64,000 nucleotides of DNA, from NCBI RefSeq assembly GCF_004103715.1, contig NZ_CP035282.1, positions 248,001 through 312,000 on the forward strand, given 5' to 3'. Every line of letters begins with the position of its first letter. The first letter of the stretch is position 1. The notes beneath the pieces were generated by a model. It made no database searches. It worked only from the letters and a program-made list of their open reading frames with translations, and was not told where the DNA came from. Positions 49,803-63,936 of the stretch are shown in pieces. The position numbers and the translations under genes are program-made. This stretch comes from Acidilutibacter cellobiosedens. GTDB lineage: Bacteria > Bacillota > Clostridia > Tissierellales > Acidilutibacteraceae.

Positions 49803-50633
49803 TTGATTAAGGTGGTTGATAACATTGGGAAATACAATACCGAATGGACTAAAGAAAAATATGAGCGATTTATAAAGGAAGGGCGTGGGCTAGGAGAAGG
49901 AGAGAGTTACAAACCTTGGCTCACAATACAAGATTTTCCCTCTATGGGTAGGGCCACGAGGATAATGGGATGGAAAACAAAGCGTATTCATCATTTTTTC
50001 TCTGATTTGCAACTGAAGTATTTCTACCTTTTAGAGTGGGAAGAAAGTGTTGTAGATATTAGAGAACACTATCCTCTTTTAGATTTTGATGAGGTAATTG
50101 AGGATAAAATGGATTTAAGACTTGATAAATTTATAGATAGAAAAACCAAGGTGCCATACGTCTTGTCTACTACATTTCTTATTACGTTATTTAAGCCAGG
50201 AAATAAGGTAGAATTTGTGGCTAGGAGTATAAAAATAGCTTCAGATTTGCAGAAAAAAATAACTATAGAAAGATTAGAAGCGGAACGGCGATATTGGAGT
50301 GCCAAAGGGATAGATTGGGGCATTGTAACAAATAAAGATATTAATACTGTAATGTCAAAAAATGTTGAATGGTTACATTCGACTATGAACACAGAAAGTT
50401 ATAACGGGATTAAGGAGGAACAATTGGATGAACTGGCGGAAGGGTTATTATATAGATTAAAAAGTTCAGAGTCTGTTCGCAAAATAATAAGGAAATATGA
50501 GAAGGACTATTGTCTTGATGCTGGAACAGGTATTTTACTTTTTAAATATTTATTATTAAAGAGGAAAATATTTATCAACATGAATGAGCCCATAAAGTTT
50601 AATATACCAGGCCAATCCCTTTGGTTACCTTAA
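49803..50633 (+). CDS. tnsA: TnsA-like endonuclease
   Basis: TnsA makes the 5' strand cuts that let Tn7 transpose by cut-and-paste. About 276 residues. Family hallmarks: YLLEWEESVVDIREHYPL (E78 candidate ligand) and FVARSIKI (K144). The catalytic Asp, expected in a motif like MTTDFL, appears as Thr: VLSTTFLIT (T124). If the alignment is right the protein may not cut. The start is unclear: TTG 49803, GTG 49812 and ATT 49824 share the frame, with AAGGTGG at 49807-49813. Confidence 0.82.
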   Translation: MIKVVDNIGKYNTEWTKEKYERFIKEGRGLGEGESYKPWLTIQDFPSMGRATRIMGWKTKRIHHFFSDLQLKYFYLLEWEESVVDIREHYPLLDFDEVIEDKMDLRLDKFIDRKTKVPYVLSTTFLITLFKPGNKVEFVARSIKIASDLQKKITIERLEAERRYWSAKGIDWGIVTNKDINTVMSKNVEWLHSTMNTESYNGIKEEQLDELAEGLLYRLKSSESVRKIIRKYEKDYCLDAGTGILLFKYLLLKRKIFINMNEPIKFNIPGQSLWLP

Positions 50634-50657
50634 AAATGATGGAAGGGAGGTTAGCAA

Positions 50658-52823
50658 ATGAGATTTACAGTTAATACAATAATAAAGTGGGAAGTTGAAG
50701 ATGAAAAACAGAGTTTAGAACGAATTCTTTTTCTTGATCAGGATTTATTGTATGTAATAAATATAAATGATAACTCGCTACCCTTTCCAAGAAAAATTTC
50801 CGATATAAATGAAGCACTATTCGACGAACGAGCACAAATTGTTAACGAAGATCCTTATTTATTACTAATATCAGATGAAGAGCTGCCACCAAAACATAAA
50901 GAAAAAAGGGATAAAGCATGGAAGATAATTAAAAATTTTGTAAGAAATGAGCCCGAAATATTTGAACCAACATATCGCAGAAAACTTATTAAGAAAACTG
51001 TTGAACAGTTTGATGTTAGTGAAAATACTGTTGCCAGCTATCTAAAAAGATATTGGAAAAGAGGGAAAACCCCTAATGCTTTAGTTCCAGATTATAGATA
51101 TTGTGGAGGTCCAGGAAAAGAGAGAACGGCTGGAAAAGTAAAAAGGGGTAGACCTCGAAAACACCAGAACATAACTGGAGAAGGAATAAATATTACGGAA
51201 GATATAAAAAAAACCTTCCGTATTGCTATAAATAAATATTATTACACCACGGCAAAAAACTCTTTGGTTTTAACCTATGAACTGATGAGGAAAGAATATT
51301 TTGTAGATGGTTTTATAGAGGCAAATGGAGTGAAAATACCTATTATAAAGCCTCAATCGCAGATTCCGAGTTTTGGGCAGTTTCGATATTGGTTTGAGAA
51401 AGAAAGAAACATCAAAAGAGAGATTACCAGCCGATATAGTAATAAAAAATATCAAAAGCAATATCGACCTATTATAGGAAACACTGCTAGTGACGTTCTG
51501 CAACCTGGGACTTTTGAAATAGATTGCCAGGTGGGGGATGTCTATTTAGTATCAAGGTTTAATAAAAATTGGGTTATTGGTAGACCTGCTATCTATGCGG
51601 TTATTGATAAATTTAGCCGTGTCATATGTGGAATATATATTGGCCTTGAAACAGGTTCTTATGTTGGTGCAATGATGGCACTTTTAAATGCAACTATGGA
51701 TAAGGTTAGATTTTGTAAACAGTATGGCATTGAAATACATGAAGAGGATTGGCCCATTCATTATTTACCAGAAACTATTATTGCAGATCGAGGAGAATTA
51801 GAGGGCGGAAACATCGAGGACTTAATCAATATATTAAATGTTAAAGTACAGAATACCCCTCCCTACCGTGCAGACTTAAAATCAGCAGTGGAAAGGTTCT
51901 TCGGGCTTACAAATGAGAGAGTGAAACCATTTTTGCCAGGAGTAGTAGATTTGGACGGGCGAGAAAGAGGAGATAAGGATTACCGACTAAAGGCAAAGCT
52001 TGATTTATATCAGTTTACCCAAATTATGATTAAGTGTATTTTATATCACAACAACTATTATAACTTGAACTACTATAAAAGGGATGAAATGATGATCGCA
52101 GATGATGTTCCCTGTATTCCCATTAAGCTTTGGAGTTGGGGGATTGCAAATAGAGGTGGAACACTGCGCACCGTTCCTGAAGATGTAGTAAAGTTGGCTC
52201 TGATGCCTTCTGATACAGCAACCGTTACAGCAAAAGGGGTAAAATATAAGGATATGTATTATGCATCTACTTCAATGCTAAAGGGACAAGCTTTTGTTAA
52301 TGCCAGAACAAAAGGGACTTGGAAGGTAAAGATAAGTTTCGACCCTAGGGATATGAACTATATTTATGTACATGGTAAAGGGATTAATGATTATGAAAAA
52401 TGCTATCTAATAGATGGAAACAGCAGGTATAAGGATAAGGCGATAGAGGAGATTGAATATTTGCTTGCCGTGGAGAGAATGCAGAAAGAAAAAAGTGAAG
52501 ATGCAGTGGCACAAGCAAAGACACAGCTGATTGTAGAGATAGAGGATATTGTTGAAGAAGCAAATGATGATTACAAGAGAGAGACAAATCCTATAAAAAG
52601 TGATAAACAAAGGGTAAAAAATATAAGAGAAAATCGTAAAGCCGAAAAAACAGTGAGAAGGACGGAAGAAGTTTTTGAATTAGGACATGAAGATGAAAAT
52701 CATTATAGCAGTATTATTTCTAGTAAGAAGGGTTTTGAGGAAGAAAAAAGCACTTTAGATTTGTTCTTTAGAAAACAAAAGGAGGGCTTGGCAAATGGGG
52801 GAGGTTTGGATTCCAAGTGGTAG
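50658..52823 (+). CDS. tnsB: TnsB transposase (Mu/rve DDE family)
   Basis: 721 residues. DDE catalytic triad: Asp in FEIDCQVGD near residue 288, Asp in IIADRGELEG near residue 376 and Glu in KSAVERFFG near residue 412. N-terminal helix-turn-helix segment (TVEQFDVSENTVASYLKRYW) binds the transposon-end repeats. The lysine-rich C-terminal tail probably contacts TnsC. GGGAGG lies before the ATG; the gene overlaps tnsC by 29 bp. Confidence 0.95.
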   Translation: MRFTVNTIIKWEVEDEKQSLERILFLDQDLLYVININDNSLPFPRKISDINEALFDERAQIVNEDPYLLLISDEELPPKHKEKRDKAWKIIKNFVRNEPEIFEPTYRRKLIKKTVEQFDVSENTVASYLKRYWKRGKTPNALVPDYRYCGGPGKERTAGKVKRGRPRKHQNITGEGINITEDIKKTFRIAINKYYYTTAKNSLVLTYELMRKEYFVDGFIEANGVKIPIIKPQSQIPSFGQFRYWFEKERNIKREITSRYSNKKYQKQYRPIIGNTASDVLQPGTFEIDCQVGDVYLVSRFNKNWVIGRPAIYAVIDKFSRVICGIYIGLETGSYVGAMMALLNATMDKVRFCKQYGIEIHEEDWPIHYLPETIIADRGELEGGNIEDLINILNVKVQNTPPYRADLKSAVERFFGLTNERVKPFLPGVVDLDGRERGDKDYRLKAKLDLYQFTQIMIKCILYHNNYYNLNYYKRDEMMIADDVPCIPIKLWSWGIANRGGTLRTVPEDVVKLALMPSDTATVTAKGVKYKDMYYASTSMLKGQAFVNARTKGTWKVKISFDPRDMNYIYVHGKGINDYEKCYLIDGNSRYKDKAIEEIEYLLAVERMQKEKSEDAVAQAKTQLIVEIEDIVEEANDDYKRETNPIKSDKQRVKNIRENRKAEKTVRRTEEVFELGHEDENHYSSIISSKKGFEEEKSTLDLFFRKQKEGLANGGGLDSKW

Positions 52824-54495
52824 TATGGCCGTAGAAGCAGAATATAAAGAGCAGATAATACCAGATTATAAAGACAATCCTTTTATAGAAGCCCTTCCGA
52901 GCCTTATGGCTCCAGATGAAGTAATAGAAAAACTGGCTTTTTATCCTCAATATAATTCCAGTGAAAGACAGTTAGAGAGCCACTATAGAATACACATGAT
53001 AGATAGGATGTTCCAAGTGTTTCAGCCCCTACCTATGAGTATAGAATTGGAAAGCAAGATTGCCCGTGCTGTTCGTCAGGGATATCTATCCAGAAATCCC
53101 TTTGGGAGAGAGCTAGTTTGGGGATTTCGTCAGGATTATTATAGAAAAAATAATATTAATTTAAGCGCTGATAGCGGATTTTATTCTTCATCTTTAGGTT
53201 TTACCTTAATAGGTATATCGGGCCTGGGGAAAACTTCTTCACTTCAGAGGATACTTAATTTGTATCCTCAAATTCTTGTCCATTCGGAGTATAAAAATAT
53301 GCATTTTTCGGTGTATCAAGTCGTCTGGATGAAACTGGAGTGCCCACACGATGGTTCTATAAAAGGTTTACTATATGAATTTTTTTCCGAAACAGATAGA
53401 TTGCTCGGGACCAACTATTACCAGAAAATGATGAAAATAAGAGCGACAACGGATGCTATGATGACGGTAATGAATCAAGTGGTAAGGAATTGTTCATTGG
53501 GATTGCTTGTAATAGATGAAATTCAGCATTTAAGTATGGCAAAATCGGGTGGTAGTGAAAAGATGTTAAACTTTTTTGTAAACCTTGTAAATAATGTAGG
53601 TGTTCCAGTGATTTTAGTGGGAACTCCCAAAGCAATTGCTGTGTTTCAGGGAGATTTTAGACAAGCAAGAAGAGGAGCGGGTCCAGCAGGCGATATGATC
53701 TGTGATAGGATTCAGAAGGATGGGGTATGGGATTTATTAGTTAACTCTATTTGGCGTTATCAGTGGACGAGGAAAGAAACTCCTCTTACTCCTGAAATAA
53801 ATAATGTGTTATATGAAGAAACACAGGGCATTCCAGATTTATTAAAAAAAGTTTATGGTATTGCACAGGCCTATACAATTTCTACAGGCAAAGAAGAAAT
53901 AACTCCTTATATTATTAAAAAAGTGGCTAAACAAAACTTAAAACTGGTGCAGCCAATGCTTACTGCCTTAAAAACTGGCAATGTCAGAGAAATTGCTAAA
54001 TTTGAAGATATATGTATGTTAAATATAAATTTCAATGGTTTTTTGACTAGAACAAAACAGTCTATTACTTTAGATTTAAAAGCTAAAGCAATTAAAAAGC
54101 AGGAAAAAGAACAAAAGAAAGAAGATATGATGGATAAGAAAAAGGAGGCAGTTTTGAAGCTTATAGATCTGGGATTTGATGCTAAAAAGGCTCAAAAAAC
54201 TATCGATAAGATGGATTATGAGCAAGGTAACGAGAATGTAAGTATAAATAGTATAGTATTAGATGCAATAAAACTTCTTACAGATGGAGAAAAGAAAAAC
54301 AAAGCAAGTGGTGAAGGGAAGGTTAAATATGATGCATCTGATATTCGGTATATAGTTGAACAGGGTAAAAAATATAATAAAAGTGCATATGAATCGCTAT
54401 TAGAGAAAGGTTACATTAAGACATTTCAAAATGATGTCTTTTCTTTTCAGAGGAGATGGTGCAGTGAACTTTTTTCCAACACCATATCCAGATGA
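52795..54495 (+). CDS. tnsC: TnsC AAA+ regulator
   Basis: 566 residues. Walker A GISGLGKTSS near residue 141 and Walker B LLVIDEIQHLS near residue 238. It links target choice by TnsD to the transposase. AGGAGG precedes the ATG inside the tnsB end, so translation is coupled. A charged C-terminal extension (KAIKKQEKEQKKEDMMDKKK) follows the ATPase. Confidence 0.94.
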   Translation: MGEVWIPSGSMAVEAEYKEQIIPDYKDNPFIEALPSLMAPDEVIEKLAFYPQYNSSERQLESHYRIHMIDRMFQVFQPLPMSIELESKIARAVRQGYLSRNPFGRELVWGFRQDYYRKNNINLSADSGFYSSSLGFTLIGISGLGKTSSLQRILNLYPQILVHSEYKNMHFSVYQVVWMKLECPHDGSIKGLLYEFFSETDRLLGTNYYQKMMKIRATTDAMMTVMNQVVRNCSLGLLVIDEIQHLSMAKSGGSEKMLNFFVNLVNNVGVPVILVGTPKAIAVFQGDFRQARRGAGPAGDMICDRIQKDGVWDLLVNSIWRYQWTRKETPLTPEINNVLYEETQGIPDLLKKVYGIAQAYTISTGKEEITPYIIKKVAKQNLKLVQPMLTALKTGNVREIAKFEDICMLNINFNGFLTRTKQSITLDLKAKAIKKQEKEQKKEDMMDKKKEAVLKLIDLGFDAKKAQKTIDKMDYEQGNENVSINSIVLDAIKLLTDGEKKNKASGEGKVKYDASDIRYIVEQGKKYNKSAYESLLEKGYIKTFQNDVFSFQRRWCSELFSNTISR

Positions 54496-56182
54496 GCTAT
54501 TATACAGTGTATTGGGGCGTTACTGTATTAGAAGTGGAAACATAAGAGAAATACATAATATTCAAGATATGTTTGGGTCACGAAATGTGATTGCATCTAT
54601 GGAATTGCCAACACAACTGGAAGCATTAATTGCAAATATGCCCGTAAATACAAAATATACGGCGGAACAATTTATATATAAGCATACTTTGTTTCCTTTT
54701 TATGCTGCTTTTATTCCTTCCAAGCGAGCTAAAGAAATTGTACAAGCAATGAAAAACGGAGAAGGGAAAACAATCTATATAAAAATTGGGTTAGTGTCAA
54801 ACACCGTAATATTAAACAGGTTTTTTAGATTTTGTCCTGAATGTTTTAAAAAAGATATAGAAACATTTGGAGAACCATATTGGCATAGAATTCACCAGGT
54901 TACAGGGGTATTTGTATGTTTAAAGCATAAGATGCCTCTTTGTGACAGCACAGAACTCATAAGGGCAGGCAACAGACAGAGATTTATTAGTGCATCCCAT
55001 GAGAACTGTATAGTAGAAAAAGAAATAAGTTATTCAAATGATTTGATGGAAAAGATGCTTTGGATAGCAGAGGATACAGAAATACTTCTAAATAATCAAT
55101 TTGGGTTTAGGGAAGGTCAATGGTTTAAAAGTCAGTTTCGGGTTAAGTTGATTGAAAAAGGCTATGCTAGGATGAACAATTATATTCATCAAAAGAAGTT
55201 AAAACAAGACTTTGTGGATTTTTATGGTCAAGAATACTTGGCACTTGTTCAATCCCCTGTATCAGTTAATAGTGGAGGTTGGCTACCTGATATGGTTAGA
55301 AATAATGATAGGACAACCTATTCAATAAGGTATCTATTATTAGCGAGGTTTCTCGGAATTCCAATCGTTGATTTATTTAATACAAAACTTGGCTCGAATG
55401 ATGAAGATGAAAACAATATTGATGCTTATCAGGAACTGTGGGACCAGAGGTTGATAGAACTTGCTCAATCAGGGCTATCAATCCGAGAAATATCAGATAT
55501 ATTAAAGTCATCTACAAAAACAATTAGGAAGGCTATTGATAGATTAGGAATAGAAGAGTTTTGGAAATTTAATGGCGGTGGAAAATATCTTCATAGCAAG
55601 TTTACTGATACAGAAGAATTCAGAATGAAAAGAGAAAGGTTAAGGGAAGAGTGGCTTGAACTCCATGCTCAATATCCTGATAAAAGCAGCAGTCAAATTC
55701 GTAAAAATAACGATGGAGTCTATGCTTGGTTAAAAAAATATGATAGTGAATGGATGGAAGAAAACTATCGCAGAATAAAAACAGTAGTTAATACTGTTGA
55801 TTGGGATAAAAGAGATGCTGAATTGCTTCCAAAAGTAAAAGAAGTGGTTAAAGAAATGAAACAAGGTAAGCCTGAAAGGATAACGTGGGGTGGTATAGGA
55901 AGAAAATTAGGGATTAGCGGATGGTTTGCAAAGAGCAAAAATAAGCTGCCATTTACTAAAAAGTATGTAGATTCCGTAGTAGAAAATCTGCAAGAATTTC
56001 AAATAAGAAAGATACAATGGGGTATGAGTCAATTAGAGGGGGAAGGAAAAGAAATCAAGTTGTGGAATTTAGTAGAAACGGCAGGAGTTAAGCCTAGATA
56101 TATGAAGAATATTAGTAAAGAAATAAAAAAAATATTAGAAGAAAAAGGCTATGATACAGATTTTTTATCTAACTTAAAATAA
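54464..56182 (+). CDS. tnsD: TnsD/TniQ target selector
   Basis: About 572 residues. Classic N-terminus FFPTPYPDELLYSVLGRY and the TniQ zinc motif FCPECFKKDI near residue 124 with H-containing partner YWHRIHQ and CLKHKMPL. The C-terminal half carries helix-turn-helix segments (SIREISDILKSSTKTIRKAI and ITWGGIGRKLGISGWFAKSK) that would read the attachment site. GTG 54464, behind GGAGATG and inside the tnsC end, is the likely start. Its size suggests a TnsD-type site-specific selector. Confidence 0.9.
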   Translation: MNFFPTPYPDELLYSVLGRYCIRSGNIREIHNIQDMFGSRNVIASMELPTQLEALIANMPVNTKYTAEQFIYKHTLFPFYAAFIPSKRAKEIVQAMKNGEGKTIYIKIGLVSNTVILNRFFRFCPECFKKDIETFGEPYWHRIHQVTGVFVCLKHKMPLCDSTELIRAGNRQRFISASHENCIVEKEISYSNDLMEKMLWIAEDTEILLNNQFGFREGQWFKSQFRVKLIEKGYARMNNYIHQKKLKQDFVDFYGQEYLALVQSPVSVNSGGWLPDMVRNNDRTTYSIRYLLLARFLGIPIVDLFNTKLGSNDEDENNIDAYQELWDQRLIELAQSGLSIREISDILKSSTKTIRKAIDRLGIEEFWKFNGGGKYLHSKFTDTEEFRMKRERLREEWLELHAQYPDKSSSQIRKNNDGVYAWLKKYDSEWMEENYRRIKTVVNTVDWDKRDAELLPKVKEVVKEMKQGKPERITWGGIGRKLGISGWFAKSKNKLPFTKKYVDSVVENLQEFQIRKIQWGMSQLEGEGKEIKLWNLVETAGVKPRYMKNISKEIKKILEEKGYDTDFLSNLK

Positions 56183-56589: not shown

Positions 56590-56688
56590 TAAATAGATAG
56601 GGTTAATAGTTGGGATTAAGATATTATATCGGTAACTTTTGTTATCAAAATTAGAGTTTTTCATGGAAAAAACGTTGATATAACAGAC

Positions 56689-56778
56689 TTAAGAGGGAAA
56701 ACGGATGATAAGAATAGTCCTTTTTCCCTTTTTCTATATGCCTTGCTCTGCTCTCACGATATGACTTTATTGCTTTTT
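56689..56778 (+). repeat. Transposon-end repeat, copy 1 (degenerate)
   Basis: About 90 bp matching 63018-63111: TTAAGAGGGAAAACGGAT, a GGGAAAA/TTTTCCC terminator hairpin, CTATATGCCTTG, then a TnsB-like site TGACTTTATTGCTTTTT. The distal terminus is missing here. The rest of 56590-57013 shows no gene. Confidence 0.7.
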
Positions 56779-57013
56779 AAAAAAAGTGCTAGGATAAAAA
56801 GGCTATAATACGGGCTTTTAAAGTATTGATAATTATAATGGTATAATAGAAGAAACAGGTAAAAACTTGTTCAATATAGTAGTTGGAAATTGATAGGAGA
56901 TAGATTCACATATAAAGGATAAAGTAGTAGTAGGTCTACAATGCAACTAATTCATTTGCCTTTAAATAATGTTAAAAAACAAACAGATAATTACTGAAAG
57001 GGGGTTAGATATT

Positions 57014-57823
57014 ATGTTTAAAAAAATCCTGGGAGTATTTGGTATAAATAAGAGAAAAGACTCTTTAAGAAGTAACCCGAAGGAAGAAGGTAAAAATGCT
57101 TTAGAACAAGAAGTTGGTAAGGCAATTGATGAAATAAAGGACGAAATATTTACAGTTGATTTTATTAGCATTAGGGAAAATAATGAGACAATTAAAAATG
57201 CAGAAGTTGTGTTTCCTGCCAAAAATCAATACATAATAATTAATGGTGAAAAAACATATTTTGATGCTTACTATATTAGGGACGAAGGAAAGAGTAGCGA
57301 TAACCTATATAATAGGATAGCGACTCCTGATTTTAAGTTTTGGATTCTGCCTAAAGACTATAAGCGCTTCATGGTGATAGCCAATCATCGCCATGATATA
57401 CTCATTGAAAATAGGAAGAAACGTGATGAGATAATTAAAATTGATATGAATACTCCTTGTGAATATGATTCCATAGATAAAGATATATATAAATGTTTTA
57501 TCTCAAATAAAGCTGGAATGTGCGATGCTATAGGGACATGGGAACAATTTAGAAAAGTGGAAGAACAAATAGCAAAAATATGTGAAGAAAATAGTGGCAG
57601 ATATTTTAAGACACAGGCTAAAACTGCTAATTTTGCAATTATTTTTGATTACATAGCTAGAACATATTCAAATGTAAGCAGTCTTAAGGAAAAAGGATAT
57701 AAAGTTACGACGTTTGAAATGGCACTTGAGTTTTTTGGGCTTTCTCATATGTGGAATTTGAGCAATCTTAAGAAAATGGAGAAAAAGCATAAAGAATTTA
57801 TAAAGGAAAGTTACAATAAATAG
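57014..57823 (+). CDS. Unknown cargo protein
   Basis: 269 residues from ATG 57014 (AAAGGGGG upstream). Basic N-terminus MFKKILGVFGINKRKDS, then a mixed alpha/beta protein (YIIINGEKTYFDAYYIRD, DFKFWILPKDYKRFMVI). No catalytic motif or family recognised. It is the first gene of the cargo after the tns operon and is followed by about 300 bp without a gene, then the IS110 element. Confidence 0.55.
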   Translation: MFKKILGVFGINKRKDSLRSNPKEEGKNALEQEVGKAIDEIKDEIFTVDFISIRENNETIKNAEVVFPAKNQYIIINGEKTYFDAYYIRDEGKSSDNLYNRIATPDFKFWILPKDYKRFMVIANHRHDILIENRKKRDEIIKIDMNTPCEYDSIDKDIYKCFISNKAGMCDAIGTWEQFRKVEEQIAKICEENSGRYFKTQAKTANFAIIFDYIARTYSNVSSLKEKGYKVTTFEMALEFFGLSHMWNLSNLKKMEKKHKEFIKESYNK

Positions 57824-58125: not shown

Positions 58126-59415
58126 TTAGGCTACTGAAGACCTAGTAAGAAGTAGTTCCTCATGCTCTTCTGGGGTTCTTAGCTCAAAAGGCTTTTTGTC
58201 TCTCATGACGGCGAATATAATATTTACTAATTTTCTCATTACAGCACCTAATGCAACCTTTTTGGGCTTGTTTGTACACTTTTTTTGGTAGAACTCATAG
58301 AGCACTGGATTAGTTTTGTCACCATTTCTCTTACTTCGAATATTGGCTAAAGCAGTTGTAAAGATGACCCTACGAAGCAATCTAGAGCCCCTTTTAGACA
58401 TTTTGTTACGGGTTCCGGTGAATTCACCCGATTGATTAACAGAGGGGTCAATTCCAAAGAAAGCTACAAGTTTATTGGGGCTAGAAAATGCAGAAAAATC
58501 ACCAACCTCAGCAAGTATCGTGGCAGCAGTTAGTATCCCGATACCAGGAATACTGCATAGCAGATTAATAATAGGTGCCAATACAGGATTATCTTCTAAA
58601 GAATCTGCTAAAATAATTTCATTAATTGCGTCAAGTATGTCTTTTTGGGCATCTTGTAAGGTTCTTACCATGGAAATATTAACTTTGAGAATGGCTAGAT
58701 TTCCAGGGTTATTGATGCTTAAATCTTTAAATTCCTTAGCTTTTAAAACCAAAAGTTCATATTTTTCAGTGGACCACGCTAAACCTTTTTTAGAAGTTTT
58801 TTCAATAAGTGATATTAATGTTTGTTTGTTAGCCTTTAGAATTTGCTTAGGTGAAGGATACCTATCAAGTACTGCTAAGGCAGTGTTTGAATATACATTT
58901 TGGAAGACATCTGTAAAGTTTAGCATTACTTGATCAATAATGCCAATAAGCCTATTCTTGTAAGTAGTAAGTTCATCACCTAACTTGTAATATTGGCGAC
59001 AAAGGCTTTTAAGGCAGTCAATAACATCATCAGGAACAACAGTAGTCTTAATAAAAGAAAACCTATAAAGCAATGCAATCTTATGGGCATCAAATTTATC
59101 ATTTTTTACTTTCCTTATTCCAATATTTTTGATAGAATCAGATTGGATGGGGTTTATGATAGAGACCTCAAATCCAGAATCAGAAAGATAGTGGAAGAGG
59201 ATTTTGTGATAGTGCCCAGTGGATTCTAAGACTACGACAGGCCTAATTGCAAAATCCTTTTCTGCTTTTTGCAATAGACCTATAGCCTCTTTAATACTGT
59301 CAATTGAATCATGATAGATCTTAATACGATGATAAATCTCATTATTAGGGGACAAAATACACATCTCACTAAAATTTTTACCAACATCAATTCCAGCTAC
59401 AGGTGGATAATCCAT
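58126..59415 (-). CDS. IS110-family transposase (DEDD)
   Basis: 429 residues from ATG 59415, which follows AGGAGG. N-terminal DEDD RuvC-like domain: VAGIDVGKNFSEM, LESTGHYHKILFHYL, RKVKNDKFDAHKIA. C-terminal Tnp_20 domain: LLCSIPGIGILTAATILAEV and FFGIDPSVNQSGEF with the catalytic Ser region. It is guided by a bridge RNA in this family. Gene appears intact. Confidence 0.93.
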   Translation of the reverse strand: MDYPPVAGIDVGKNFSEMCILSPNNEIYHRIKIYHDSIDSIKEAIGLLQKAEKDFAIRPVVVLESTGHYHKILFHYLSDSGFEVSIINPIQSDSIKNIGIRKVKNDKFDAHKIALLYRFSFIKTTVVPDDVIDCLKSLCRQYYKLGDELTTYKNRLIGIIDQVMLNFTDVFQNVYSNTALAVLDRYPSPKQILKANKQTLISLIEKTSKKGLAWSTEKYELLVLKAKEFKDLSINNPGNLAILKVNISMVRTLQDAQKDILDAINEIILADSLEDNPVLAPIINLLCSIPGIGILTAATILAEVGDFSAFSSPNKLVAFFGIDPSVNQSGEFTGTRNKMSKRGSRLLRRVIFTTALANIRSKRNGDKTNPVLYEFYQKKCTNKPKKVALGAVMRKLVNIIFAVMRDKKPFELRTPEEHEELLLTRSSVA

Positions 59416-59640
59416 AAGAAACCTCCTAAATAAAGTATTTGGATTTAGAAATCCATTCCTTCTCAAATAAGTACACAACCTTGCATGTGACACGAGGAAC
59501 CAGTGTTAACTGGCCTCAACCAGCCAAATAATGTAATCTTATGAGAATGGATAGATACTCTTTTTTACAGGTAGTCGCATAAAGGCGTCCTAGGAGGAAT
59601 TGCATCAACCTCCAAATCCATAAATTAATTATACAATATT
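59416..59640 (-). ncRNA. Candidate IS110 bridge RNA region
   Basis: About 225 bp upstream of the transposase with no gene but several pairings, such as GGCTGG...CCAG around 59500-59525 and GGAGG...CCTCC near 59590-59615. In IS110 elements the bridge RNA comes from this end. The exact RNA limits and target loops are not determined. The rest of the gap to 59807 shows only a promoter-like AT-rich stretch. Confidence 0.45.
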
Positions 59641-59807
59641 GTTCATGGTTCAGGCCAAATTAAACTGGCTTTATGGCTAGGGTGAGAAGCCAAAGAAATG
59701 TATTTAATGATTAGAAAAGAAGACTATATTATTATTTAAGAAATTGATAATTATTACAGTGGAAAACTGTAATTTGATTATAACTATATTGTACAAGGAG
59801 GGATATA

Positions 59808-61877
59808 TTGAGTGTAGTAAATGATATACAAGCTATATTTGCCAGAGAAGCAAAAATGTCTCCTATGCTTTTAGCTGATTTAGCAAATATGGAAAAATAT
59901 ATTGCCGAAAGTTATCAATCACGTTCTGTTGTAGAATTGCTTCAAAATGCTGATGATGCAAATGCAAAAAGATTTTTTATTAGGTCTAATAACGATTGTA
60001 TTATAGTAGCCAATGATGGAAGAAAATTTAATAAAGATGACGCTATGTCTATTTGTAGAAGTGGAGTATCTACAAAAAAGAGAGATGGAAAAACCATTGG
60101 ATATAGAGGAATTGGTTTTAAGTCCGTAGTTAATCTGGCAGAAAGAGTACATATAATAAGTGGTACAATCAGGATGACGTTTTCAAGAGAATTGACGAAA
60201 AATTATCTTGAAGTTAGCAATAAAGTGCCGCTGATAAGAATACCGCATATATATACACCTATATCAAATCATGAAGGAACTATTAATAAGTTAATTGAGA
60301 AGAATTTTAACTCCATATTTATTTTCGAGCATCCTAAATTAAATAACTTGAATGAGGATTTAGGTTTATTAGATTCGAGCATATTACTTTTTTTAAAAAA
60401 TATTTGTGAATTGGAAATACATTCGGTCGTATCAAAAAAAATAAGTGTTTCAAGAAAAGAATTAGATTATAAAGAAATTATAGTTATTAATGATAATGAT
60501 AACGAGCAAGAAAGATGGTTGGTTATTAGGGATGAAAAATGTAATGCTTTAGCTTTTCTGTTAAATGATTGTAATGAAATTATAGAATTAGGGGAGGATA
60601 GGGCTGTAATTCATTCGTTTATGCCGACAAAAGACAAAGTTGGTTTGCCAATAAAAATTAATGGTGATTTTTCTACAGACCCTTCTAGAACAAGAGTTGT
60701 ATATGATGAAATATCAAAACAGACATTATTGTCATGTAGTAGATTAGTAATTAATTCTTTAAAAGATTGTATATCTAATAAAGAGCAATATGATGGTTTA
60801 GGCCTTTTTAGCGTTTTTGCAAATTTCAAGAAAGATAGAGTTAGTGGTTTTACATTAGGTGTTAAGATTAAGGAATATTTTTTTGATTGTATTAAAAGTG
60901 AACTAAATAATATTAAGTGGTATAACGGGGTTGAAACGGAGAATCTTCGAGTAAATCCTGAATGGCTAAATTCATATGATTTTAAAAAATTTTGCAGACA
61001 GTTAAAGTATACACCGCTATGTAAAGAACTAGAAAAAGATTATCCAGGGATATTAAAATTTTCAAATTTGTTTGAGTTGAAAACTTTAGATTTGGATCAA
61101 GTCTTGGATTTGTTAAATAATCTTAAACCTACAATTAATGGTAGTGTGGATGTTATATGCGAAATTATTCGTCAGTATAGATTTAATTGCAATTCAAAAA
61201 TCAAAGTAAAAATTAAAAATGCTAATTTAATATATTTTAAGTCAGGTATATATTCATCAAATTCAAAAATAAATGATTTTAACTTTGACCCTGATTTTTA
61301 TGATGCTTTAAATATGAGGATAAACGATGATAATGATTTAAAATGGTTTATAAAATTATATTTTGAAGATTTGAGTATTCAAGTTTTAAAAGCAAACAAC
61401 ATATTACAGGAGGAACATAAGCAAGTAAAAGGTAATGATACACAACTTTTAAAGCTTGAGGTTAGTAGGTATACTAGTAAAGCAACTTTGCCACCTATAA
61501 ACAAATGGAGAAGTGTAGAACAAAATCTTGCTGCTTTTCTAGAAAGAGATTCGGCAGTTAAAAAAGTTATTGATGTTAGTAAAAGTAATTTGGGTTATGA
61601 TATAGAAGTTCATTATAATGATGATAGAGTTCGATATATAGAGGTTAAAAGCGTTGAAAGGTTGGGAGCACCCATTTCGTTGACAAATAATGAGTATTCA
61701 ACTGCAAATGAATTAAAAGAAGAATATTTATTAGCCATAGTGGAGCAAACAGATTTATGTATGGAAGTATGCTATATTGAGAATCCAATAAATCATCTAA
61801 ATTTAATTAAAAGAGTAACTAGATGGGAATGGATTTGTGATGATTATAGTGGTACTTTTTTAAACTATTCATTTTAA
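59808..61877 (+). CDS. Sacsin-like GHKL ATPase fused to DUF3883-like nuclease domain
   Basis: 689 residues. N-terminal Hsp90/MORC-type ATP site: VVELLQNADDANAK (N47), VANDGRKF (D70, G71) and GYRGIGFKSV (98-107). Near residue 225 and beyond there is a second unknown region. The C-terminal about 90 residues (NLGYDIEVHYNDDRVRYIEV then KSVERLG) are like DUF3883, a PD-(D/E)XK-type fold with D and E-x-K. The start is TTG 59808 behind AAGGAGGG. Such ATPase-nuclease proteins occur in defence islands. The next two genes follow closely, so the three are probably one system. Confidence 0.8.
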   Translation: MSVVNDIQAIFAREAKMSPMLLADLANMEKYIAESYQSRSVVELLQNADDANAKRFFIRSNNDCIIVANDGRKFNKDDAMSICRSGVSTKKRDGKTIGYRGIGFKSVVNLAERVHIISGTIRMTFSRELTKNYLEVSNKVPLIRIPHIYTPISNHEGTINKLIEKNFNSIFIFEHPKLNNLNEDLGLLDSSILLFLKNICELEIHSVVSKKISVSRKELDYKEIIVINDNDNEQERWLVIRDEKCNALAFLLNDCNEIIELGEDRAVIHSFMPTKDKVGLPIKINGDFSTDPSRTRVVYDEISKQTLLSCSRLVINSLKDCISNKEQYDGLGLFSVFANFKKDRVSGFTLGVKIKEYFFDCIKSELNNIKWYNGVETENLRVNPEWLNSYDFKKFCRQLKYTPLCKELEKDYPGILKFSNLFELKTLDLDQVLDLLNNLKPTINGSVDVICEIIRQYRFNCNSKIKVKIKNANLIYFKSGIYSSNSKINDFNFDPDFYDALNMRINDDNDLKWFIKLYFEDLSIQVLKANNILQEEHKQVKGNDTQLLKLEVSRYTSKATLPPINKWRSVEQNLAAFLERDSAVKKVIDVSKSNLGYDIEVHYNDDRVRYIEVKSVERLGAPISLTNNEYSTANELKEEYLLAIVEQTDLCMEVCYIENPINHLNLIKRVTRWEWICDDYSGTFLNYSF

Positions 61878-61893
61878 ATAATAGGGGGATATT

Positions 61894-62247
61894 ATGGCAA
61901 ACAAAAATAGAATTGAAGTGAGCAAAATACAGCGATTAATTAGCATTGAAAAGAAATATGGGATAGATGATATGAATCTATTCGCATATATGCCAAATTC
62001 TAAAGAGCTAATTATTTATGGAGAAATTTATGGTGAAAGGTTAACTAATAGCATTAAGATGATGTGTAGTGTATATGATAATGAAGGAGATATAATAGCA
62101 TCAGGAGAAAATAGTAGTTATTCAAGTGGATTGGTAACAAGTTATATAGAACCACAATGTTTTGAAGGAATATTTCCATTTGAGATACAAGTAAATATAC
62201 CAAATGGGAACAAGATTGATAAAATACGTATTTACCCCATAAATTAG
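61894..62247 (+). CDS. 117-residue protein, paralogue A
   Basis: Predicted all-beta protein beginning with a helix (RLISIEKKYGIDDMNLFAYM). Shared with the next gene: K(Y/F)GI(D/E)DMN, YGEIYGERLTNSI, Y/H-N-E-G/D-I-I, GIFPFEIQV, and a KIRIYPI end. It starts 16 bp after the ATPase gene behind AGGGGGAT. Function unknown; adaptor, sensor or inhibitor are all possible. Confidence 0.6.
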   Translation: MANKNRIEVSKIQRLISIEKKYGIDDMNLFAYMPNSKELIIYGEIYGERLTNSIKMMCSVYDNEGDIIASGENSSYSSGLVTSYIEPQCFEGIFPFEIQVNIPNGNKIDKIRIYPIN

Positions 62248-62267
62248 TATATGTAAGGAGGATACTC

Positions 62268-62621
62268 GTGGAAAAAGATTTTAAGTATCCAAAAAATATT
62301 GTTGAACGATTGGATGTTTTTGAAAGAAAATTTGGAATAGAAGATATGAATGTAAGTGTTTTTCAAGATTCTTGGTATGACGGGGATTCAGGGGTAAAAG
62401 TTATAGGAGAAATTCTAGCTGAAAATTTAACTGAAAACATATTAATAATAATAACAGTACATAATGAAGATGGACAAATTATTGGTGCTGATTTTAATGA
62501 AAAAATTGATGCAGCAGATTTTGGCGGTATTTATTCATTTTCTCAAAGTCTGCGCGTTGCTAGTGGAGAAAACATTTATAAAGTACGTGTATATCCCGTA
62601 AAAAATCCAGCAAGTTGGTAA
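62268..62621 (+). CDS. 117-residue protein, paralogue B
   Basis: Same length and fold as the preceding gene: FERKFGIEDMNVSVFQDSW, GEILAENLTENILIIITVHN, GGIYSFSQSLRV and KVRVYPVK. The start is GTG 62268 behind GGAGGATA. Identity between the two is modest, about a third by eye, so the duplication is old. The next 250 bp (62622-62871) have no gene. Confidence 0.6.
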   Translation: MEKDFKYPKNIVERLDVFERKFGIEDMNVSVFQDSWYDGDSGVKVIGEILAENLTENILIIITVHNEDGQIIGADFNEKIDAADFGGIYSFSQSLRVASGENIYKVRVYPVKNPASW

Positions 62622-62871
62622 TTTGATAGTATTGGTTATTTCTGCTTTACAAGAAAAAGCCAGTAGCTTTAATAAAAAGAGTGTAATAATTGAGAGTTTT
62701 TAGAATGGCGGGCACAGAAGTTGTTGCAAACGATTATTATTGACCAGTAATATTTATTATATGAAATTTATTTAATTATATCAAGAATAATAATGTTTAA
62801 ATTCATATAACAAATTCAGGTATAAAGTAACATCTTAAGACATTAATCCTTACCCCTTAAAACTGTAACTA

Positions 62872-62920
62872 TGTATAACCAAAATAAAGTCTTGTGACGG
62901 AAAATAAAGTTTTGTCATGT
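62872..62920 (+). repeat. Tn7-type terminus candidate (rightward)
   Basis: TGTATAACCAAAATAAAGTC at 62872 has the spacing of the Tn7 end TGTGGGCGGACAATAAAGTC. A second TnsB-like site, AAAATAAAGTTTTGTC, begins 20 bp further at 62901. Confidence 0.6.
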
Positions 62921-63017
62921 TTATTAGGGAGCAAGGCTCAAGAATCAATGAATAAGGATATTTTTAAGAAGGATTTAGAGACAATCACAATAGACTAAAA
63001 CCATTGATAGTAAAGAT

Positions 63018-63111
63018 TTAAGAGGGAAAACGGATTATGATAAGAATAGTCCTTTTCCCTTTTTTCATATACCTTGATCCTGCCTTTACAACAGAACTTT
63101 ATTTACTTTTT
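63018..63111 (+). repeat. Transposon-end repeat, copy 2
   Basis: Matches 56689-56778: terminator hairpin GGGAAAA/TTTTCCC followed by the TnsB site ACAGAACTTTATTTACTTTT. Here it continues into an intact terminus. Confidence 0.72.
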
Positions 63112-63268
63112 CAGAGAGCATTAAGGGGCATTTGAGGGCAAAAAATAATAGGAAGTAAAAAAGAGGTAAAAAGGAAGAAAAATACAAAGGTAGAGATACC
63201 AATGGTTAGCGGGTTGTGCGTGACAGAACTATATTTGCTTTTTGACAGAACTTTATTTTGATTGCACA
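63091..63268 (+). repeat. Tn7-like left-type end with three TnsB sites
   Basis: TnsB-like sites at 63091 (ACAGAACTTTATTTAC), 63221 (TGACAGAACTATATTTGC) and 63243 (TGACAGAACTTTATTTTG); the last two are exactly 22 bp apart. The element terminates GATTGCACA at 63268. Three sites over about 180 bp resemble the Tn7 left end. Confidence 0.72.
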
Positions 63269-63273
63269 TATAA

Positions 63274-63340
63274 TGTCTCCATCAAATAAAGTCCTATCAT
63301 TTTGCAAATTCATTTTAAAATGCAAATAAAGTTGTTTCAG
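63274..63340 (+). repeat. Second Tn7-like terminus, back to back
   Basis: TGTCTCCATCAAATAAAGTC begins at 63274, five bases (TATAA) after the previous terminus, and runs rightwards. A further site GCAAATAAAGTTGTTTC follows at 63322. Confidence 0.7.
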
Positions 63341-63534
63341 GAAACATGGTTTATTAGGGATTAGGAATCTCGGGTAAGCCATGTTTTTTTATTAGAGGTT
63401 TGCGAGGGATAGAGAAAAGGATACAAGGCAAAAGTCAGGTAAATCAAGGGATTGAAAGATTGAATGGAAAAGAAAATGGAGAGGAGAAATGGATAGAATT
63501 CTCCTTAAACCTTCTCCCTTAACCCTCAATCCTA

Positions 63535-63936
63535 ATAGAACTTTATTTTCATTTTTTGCCCTAATTTTTAAGAAATACAAGGACTTTAAAAGATAAATTA
63601 AGGGGAAAAGGGCATAAATGGGGAATTAGGGATAAAAAAACAAGCCGGTGTTTTCAAGGGTTTGAGGGGTGTTGGTGAGAGAACTTTATTTGAAAAAGGA
63701 GAGGAGTTTGTTTGATGAACACATAGTTAGGAACAAGGAAAAAGGGGTAAGGAATATAGGAAATAAATTAGGCAGGATATAGGGGTTAATTAGTTGTTGT
63801 AAAAAGAAAATAAAGTAGTGGTATTAGAAGGGATAAGGAATAAGGGAAGGCATTGGTAATACAGGGTTTAGTTCAGTTTTAAGGTTAAAAGAATATGGAT
63901 ATTAAAGGGAATTTGTGAAAGGACTTTATTTACTTT
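63535..63936. repeat. Scattered TnsB-like motifs in gene-free tail
   Basis: AGAACTTTATTTTC at 63535, GAGAACTTTATTTG at 63679, TGTAAAAAGAAAATAAAGT at 63798 (terminus-like spacing) and GGACTTTATTTACTT at 63921. I see no gene from 62622 to 64000. Confidence 0.5.

Follow-up and report, generated by a model that had tools for sequence, protein, structure and literature searches.

A GHKL ATPase-DUF3883 protein and its small beta-sandwich partners, a candidate defence family found in a presumed Tn7-like element of Acidilutibacter cellobiosedens

Towards the end of a 64,000-nucleotide stretch of the Acidilutibacter cellobiosedens genome (NZ_CP035282.1, positions 248,001 to 312,000, forward strand; this whole stretch is called the window, and its own numbering is used below), three adjacent genes encode an ATPase of the GHKL superfamily with a C-terminal DUF3883 domain and two small beta-domain proteins, here called A and B. 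We find that genes for the small domain are closely linked to genes for this ATPase across several phyla, and that many relatives of the ATPase have a different, helical-looking partner instead; the two partner classes follow a deep split of the ATPase family. We suggest, with a probability of roughly one half, that the larger protein is an ATP-gated GHKL-DUF3883 nuclease that works with a small beta-sandwich sensor or adaptor partner against phage or other foreign DNA. The features of the trio, all on the plus strand, are as follows; each open reading frame is abbreviated as ORF, and the evidence is given in brackets.

59795..59801, +, ribosome-binding site AAGGAGG of the ATPase gene (sequence)
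59808..61877, +, GHKL (sacsin/MORC-like) ATPase and DUF3883 (NOV_C) protein, 689 residues, TTG start (ORF, Pfam and NCBIfam, alignment, model)
59895..60170, +, ATP-binding GHKL/SACS part, residues 30-121, with the ELLQNADDA N-box including N47, NDG and GYRGIGFKS (Pfam SACS, invariant residues, fold match)
61542..61751, +, DUF3883/NOV_C predicted nuclease domain, residues 579-648, with D598 and E612-V-K614 (Pfam NOV_C, invariant residues, model)
61883..61888, +, ribosome-binding site AGGGGG of small gene A, weaker (sequence)
61894..62247, +, small beta-domain partner A, 117 residues, ATG start (ORF, paralogy with B, profile)
62255..62261, +, ribosome-binding site AAGGAGG of small gene B (sequence)
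62268..62621, +, small beta-domain partner B, 117 residues, GTG start (ORF, paralogy with A, profile, AlphaFold2)

An earlier note on this DNA, made from the sequence alone, had described three close genes on one strand, and all three ORFs are present at the coordinates it gave, with intergenic gaps of 16 and 20 bases. Its statement that they carry strong ribosome-binding sites is right for the ATPase gene and for B, whereas the site of A is the weaker one. The note's further description of the ATPase as fused to a restriction-like domain, and of the small proteins as related to each other and all-beta, agrees with what is reported in the next two paragraphs.

The ATPase matches SACS (E 5.7e-13) and NOV_C/DUF3883 (E 1.3e-14) in Pfam, the latter with a score of 54.4 bits, above the curated cut-off of 22.1, as well as P_loop_sacsin in NCBIfam (E 1.3e-23). 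In 46 aligned ATPases, residues E43, N47, D49, D50, N69, G71, G98, G101, G103 and K105 are invariant, and so are D598, E612 and K614 of DUF3883; with the N-box E..N and the glycine motifs in place, the protein belongs by sequence to the GHKL superfamily (sacsin-like). GHKL ATPases such as MORC, Hsp90 and MutL dimerise in an ATP-driven manner, closing like a gate or clamp. A PDB sequence search with the ATPase gave a single match, at E 0.56. In an AlphaFold2 model (predicted local distance difference test, pLDDT, of 87), the best fold match is sacsin SR1 (Z 15.1, root-mean-square deviation (rmsd) 2.8 over 172 residues), followed by MORC3 (Z 14.4, rmsd 5.7 over 270 residues), with Hsp90 close behind. 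By our reading of the same model, the elements of the DUF3883 part follow one another as helix, three main strands, helix and strand; D598 lies shortly ahead of the second strand and E612-x-K614 within the third. This order resembles PD-(D/E)xK, and the domain is a probable PD-(D/E)xK-like nuclease, as judged from the invariant residues and the modelled element order. DUF3883 is described as a novel restriction endonuclease (REase) domain in the available text of PMC3710099.

A and B can be aligned with 29% identity over 109 positions (E 3e-16), and we therefore regard them as paralogues. They lie nearest each other by path in a tree of the small domain, which has too few columns to date the duplication. 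In an AlphaFold2 model (pLDDT 95), 112 of the 117 residues of B fold as a beta sandwich that has a single short helix, and the single-domain form of the partner models as an Ig-like sandwich. Neither A nor B has any Pfam or PADLOC match at E 1, and NCBIfam gives one chance-level match each (E 0.043 and 0.15), so that in sequence searches both are without a convincing family match. When the small domain was searched by fold, Foldseek found nothing at ≤0.001; the best fold match (Z 9.1) is to part of a GH2 enzyme, and we draw no function from it. One family with weak similarity is FxLYD (NF038353), which 5 of 59 small domains match at E ≤0.05 (best 8.6e-4); A and B themselves do not match it at E 1, and no family name is warranted.

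To place the trio among its relatives, we used a set of 83 loci. A scan of genome contigs with a three-row ATPase alignment gave 81 relatives, of which 80 loci were kept, and the window and two further loci (L003 and L005) complete the set. Some of these loci hold shortened ATPases, and one protein (L085) is distant, 1924 residues long and matches part of the ATPase profile. Two near-copies, L019 and L026, have the same matches and scores as L018 and L025; the totals of 50 and 83 loci given below include them, but they are excluded from the 59-row small-domain alignment (A4) and from the ATPase tree. An iterative profile built from A and B and run over the 4,163 ORFs of the 83 loci found 61 ORFs in 50 loci, all with independent E-values ≤2.2e-19, and below E 1 nothing else among these ORFs matched, save two second segments within ORFs already found. 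Fifty-two of the 61 lie no more than 100 bases from the ATPase gene, and the other nine are second copies whose first copy is that close; counting every ORF of at least 100 residues in these loci apart from the ATPase, 72 of 857 are as near as this. Judged by record titles, which two of them lack, the 50 loci span seven named phyla and Candidatus Hydrogenedentota.

The arrangement of the genes is also regular. The nearest small gene is on the same strand and upstream of the ATPase gene in 43 of the 50 loci, downstream in five (including the window) and on the opposite strand in two. If the longest ORF is assumed throughout, the gap or overlap is at most 30 bases in 44 loci, a 4-base overlap occurs in 16, and the small gene overlaps the ATPase gene in 23, one of these being an opposite-strand case. 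Paired beta ORFs are present in 11 of the 50. The multi-gene unit proposed by the earlier note is thus conserved as a pairing of ATPase and small domain; its doubled small gene is a minority form, and the gene order of the window is the reverse of the usual one.

The small domain was also searched for in the reverse direction, with A4 (59 rows) against five genome samples of 398, 301, 240, 236 and 219 genomes, which possibly overlap and are each centred on a genome with the small domain. Strong matches (E ≤4.9e-17) were found in 11 genomes, in 10 of which an ATPase is adjacent. Nine of the 11 had fed the profile, including G665 (identical to locus L017) and G837 (identical to L030; both 100% identity), leaving two from outside it. 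At the sensitivity used, these searches show that the small domain seldom occurs apart from the ATPase, and they add little support that is wholly independent. Weaker matches in G689, G1138 and G1177 are not beside an ATPase in the stretches fetched; the one in G1138 sits, by our reading, in an FxLYD-type lipoprotein. The earlier note had held that its proposal would fall if the small proteins occurred mostly without the ATPase, and what we see is one orphan among the 11 genomes, a result that does not refute it.

Two observations on individual loci may be added. At L090:2193-3960, an orphan small-domain gene stands behind two genes, the first of which is HEPN-like by reading; a transposase gene is located downstream, and no ATPase was found there. 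The ATPase gene of L099, L051 and L078, in an unchanged setting, is broken up into two ORFs, possibly through decay or assembly error.

Partner proteins are more varied than A and B suggest. Of the 61 ORFs with the small domain, 29 are no longer than 150 residues, another 29 are longer with the domain at the C-terminus, and three carry it at the N-terminus. Ten of the 32 partners above 150 residues were scanned for extra domains, revealing HIRAN on the partners of L006 and L010 (E 4.7e-14 and 9.8e-8), ankyrin repeats on two (E 5.3e-16 and 5.9e-14), a zinc ribbon on one, barely over its cut-off, and DUF5067 on one, below its cut-off; four of the ten gave no extra domain match.

In 19 of the 33 loci lacking the beta domain, another partner family of about 200 residues is encoded, which is helical by reading of the sequence. 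Examples are listed here by locus.

L003:7358-7987, helical-looking partner
L029:5377-5967, helical-looking partner
L032:5303-5923, helical-looking partner
L047:5322-5963, helical-looking partner
15 further loci, helical-looking partner

The gene adjoins the ATPase gene in 17 of the 19 loci, and another gene intervenes in L064 and L066. Some helical-looking partners form part of a longer protein and some are duplicated (a tandem pair in L067), and the one such protein scanned has no Pfam match. No operon in the 83 loci contains both partner classes, and 14 loci, some with shortened sequence, have neither by these profiles. A short remnant of a helical-looking partner was seen at L021:10757-11017, on the other strand and about 2.7 kb from a beta-class operon.

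In a tree of the ATPase (70 rows, quick search, LG+G4; ATPase ORFs below 600 residues and L085 excluded), a branch with 100% support in the Shimodaira-Hasegawa-like approximate likelihood ratio test (SH-aLRT) separates 42 beta-class rows and L013 from 18 helical-class rows and nine with neither partner. Partner class requires a single change on this tree among the rows whose partner is known. A search of plasmids with the ATPase gave 27 records, the best of which (H1, a Planococcus plasmid) has the helical-looking partner and not the beta domain, and the sole related viral-contig locus (L105) belongs to the helical-looking class as well.

The trio had been put forward as undescribed, and in line with this we found no named system of this make-up in the PADLOC models or the open-access literature. 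The nearest demonstrated analogue, as far as domain architecture goes, is VcSduA of Vibrio cholerae (type I-D Shedu, paraMORC3), a GHKL-nuclease fusion that protects against phages, and whose ATPase is hypothesised to control its nuclease, according to the available parts of PMC12137116. It resembles the window protein in having a GHKL ATPase at the N-terminus joined to a nuclease domain at the C-terminus, which is of PD-(D/E)xK type in VcSduA and is predicted to be so in the window protein. In VcSduA, however, the nuclease is DUF4263 instead of DUF3883, and VcSduA is described, in the same parts of that source, as a system by itself, whereas the ATPase family of the window usually has an adjacent partner gene. 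DUF4263, the criterion for Shedu, is absent among the Pfam matches of our ATPase at E 1.

A second comparison is with TmtA of PADLOC, which we take to be Tiamat, and whose N-terminal part aligns with the window ATPase (PDLC03964, 1e-57). The TmtA models that were matched have lengths of 1302-1782 positions, and in the best alignment positions 13-636 of 1538 are covered, whereas the window protein has 689 residues and so does not match over the full length. A paper on TmtA was not found in the open-access literature, and the domains of Tiamat are not given in the portions of PMC12629846 at hand. DUF3883/NOV_C proteins (PF13020) share the C-terminal domain with our ATPase; DUF3883 also occurs elsewhere, for example with an SNF2 helicase in restriction-modification operons (available text of PMC3710099), and does not by itself define the system. 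It does not appear in the accessible text of DefensePredictor (PMC13092281). MORC, sacsin and Hsp90 have the ATP-binding domain and its residues in common with the window protein, but Pfam gives the latter no CW, DnaJ or HEPN part, and DUF3883 stands in their place.

Based on the sacsin/MORC3 fold, the invariant residues, the description of DUF3883 as an REase domain and the precedent of VcSduA, we infer an ATP-gated nuclease with a sensing or licensing partner. In such a mechanism, the GHKL ATPase would dimerise on ATP and close as a gate or clamp, and the C-terminal DUF3883 nuclease, otherwise held in check, would become active once the gate has closed on the right substrate. The timing of closure would be decided by the small beta-sandwich protein, bound to the ATPase as sensor or adaptor. 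This partner may be extended by HIRAN, ankyrin or zinc ribbon, and may be replaced by the helical-looking partner in the sister branch of the ATPase, while two partner copies might widen or tune sensing; the outcome would be destruction of phage or other foreign DNA. We also speculate, more tentatively and at less than even odds, that the family is an immune platform: a single GHKL-DUF3883 executor with a plug-in sensor slot, filled by either of two unrelated partner families, whose members have taken up diverse recognition parts (HIRAN for DNA ends, ankyrin, zinc ribbon), with duplications in both classes. If so, a clamp-nuclease that itself stayed the same would have been coupled to another type of trigger when, near the base of the ATPase tree, the partner class changed once.

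The setting of the trio bears on the question of defence. The following further features of the window surround it.

49803..56182, +, Tn7-like TnsA, TnsB, TnsC and TnsD genes of the presumed host element (Pfam)
58126..59493, -, IS110-family transposase upstream of the trio (Pfam, NCBIfam)
62870..63270, +, putative repeat-bearing end of the Tn7-like element carrying the trio (repeats; 98% copy)

Repeats like GAACTTTATTT cluster directly after B: allowing at most one mismatch, 17 are present against 2 expected in the 19 kb from window position 62000 on, 12 of them in the first 2.3 kb. A looser repeat pattern was dropped, having been observed 171 times in the window against 165 by chance. In a search of the own genome, 62870-63270 has a 98% copy about 109 kb upstream (G000:201458-201858), the match ending at 63270, and 63273-63723 has a 94% copy about 16 kb downstream. 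At 63270-63273 two different repeat-bearing ends thus seem to meet, and the simplest reading of these sequence matches is that the element ends near 63270, abutting a second end. No GAACTTTATTT-like repeats within one mismatch were found just upstream of tnsA, and neither the left end of the element nor a target duplication was found. Furthermore, 115 bases of the end region match 56668-56778, between tnsD and the cargo genes, at 79%, and because of this match the cargo may have a separate history. The earlier note's view of the trio as the terminal cargo of a transposon therefore keeps the Tns genes upstream, the repeats after the trio and the copy ending at 63270 in its favour, and has the missing left end and the internal match against it. 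At 56969-57823 the cargo also includes a protein of 284 residues without a convincing family match.

That the region is rich in defence genes is borne out: of eight window proteins that were scanned, seven have PADLOC matches at ≤1e-8, namely PglX, PglZ, BrxL, CD-NTase, type III restriction, GajA and GajB, which stand for BREX, CD-NTase, type III restriction and Gabija models. The spread is patchy, with the ATPase present at E ≤1e-20 in two of 398 genomes of the phylum, one of them the window's own. Protein A was found in none of 150 related genomes except the window's own, viral contigs scanned with B or the ATPase as single proteins gave no match, and plasmids gave none to A or to B in tblastn. 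At other loci, 119 neighbouring proteins were picked from 223 of at least 170 residues, with no control set; matches to defence models for MADS, Mokosh, AriA, HerA, type IV restriction, Hhe and AbiE occur among the neighbours, and five of ten hand-picked neighbours, scanned singly, match PADLOC at ≤1e-8. Because the trio is presumed Tn7-like cargo among defence genes, is patchily distributed and has relatives with defence-like neighbours, we consider that it probably has an anti-phage role, the support being circumstantial.

Several observations weigh against a gated nuclease with a sensing partner in phage defence. An inhibitor and its toxin are likewise laid out as a small gene that lies upstream of a larger one and overlaps it, and in L044 and L076 the small gene is on the opposite strand. 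Of the two genomes from outside the profile, G982 has an adjacent but broken ATPase gene (stop or frameshift), and G508 has a small-domain gene with an adjoining transposase gene and no ATPase in the fetched sequence, which reaches the end of the contig. The fold comparison covered residues 16-425, which lie ahead of the DUF3883 part, and the neighbour scans, apart from lacking a control set, also contain ordinary genes (aconitase, transporters).

Since upstream, overlapping small genes are typical of antitoxins too, the main rival to a sensing partner is a neutralising one, that is, a toxin-antitoxin-like pair in which the small protein keeps the ATPase-nuclease shut until phage infection removes it, the partner classes being alternative antitoxins. 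The upstream same-strand position (43 of 50 loci), the overlaps (23 of 50, one opposite-strand) and the fact that both classes never share an operon are all as expected from such a pair. However, the gene order is reversed in the window, 32 of 61 partners exceed 150 residues and some carry HIRAN or ankyrin, which is unusual for simple antitoxins, and second copies recur (11 of 50 loci); we thus regard this explanation as unlikely, though deserving of attention. The small proteins might instead be DNA-binding specificity subunits through which the ATPase is loaded onto modified DNA or certain DNA ends, in a modification- or structure-dependent form of restriction. HIRAN on the partners of L006 and L010, the type IV restriction enzyme model matched by a neighbour in L065, and the link of MORC and paraMORC ATPases to restriction-modification systems (PMC2292703, in the text available) are in line with this. 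Yet HIRAN was found in only two of the ten long partners scanned, out of 32, no DNA-binding family is matched by A or B, and the model of the single-domain form is an Ig-like sandwich, so that we find this reading rather unlikely as well. That the trio has no part in defence, and consists of a housekeeping or chaperone-like GHKL ATPase and a beta protein akin to a co-chaperone, both being passengers of a mobile element by chance, would fit with Hsp90 and sacsin among the closest folds and with the ordinary genes among the neighbours; it appears improbable given the patchy spread (two of 398 phylum genomes, the window's own included), the presumed Tn7-like cargo in a window with known defence genes, and the DUF3883 residues that are invariant in 46 rows.

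Should the gated nuclease with a sensing partner prove true, the ATPase and its small partners would be a two-component defence family of many phyla that is not named as such in PADLOC 2023, and sacsin/MORC-type gates would be linked to a DUF3883 nuclease with a defined partner. The exchange of one partner class for the other would then be a natural experiment in sensor swapping, and the extra domains of the longer partners lead to direct, testable guesses on what is sensed. The Pfam name of DUF3883 is 'Protein NO VEIN, C-terminal', and the name NO VEIN derives from a plant protein; because of this shared domain, an activity of bacterial DUF3883 could also help to interpret the eukaryotic NO VEIN.

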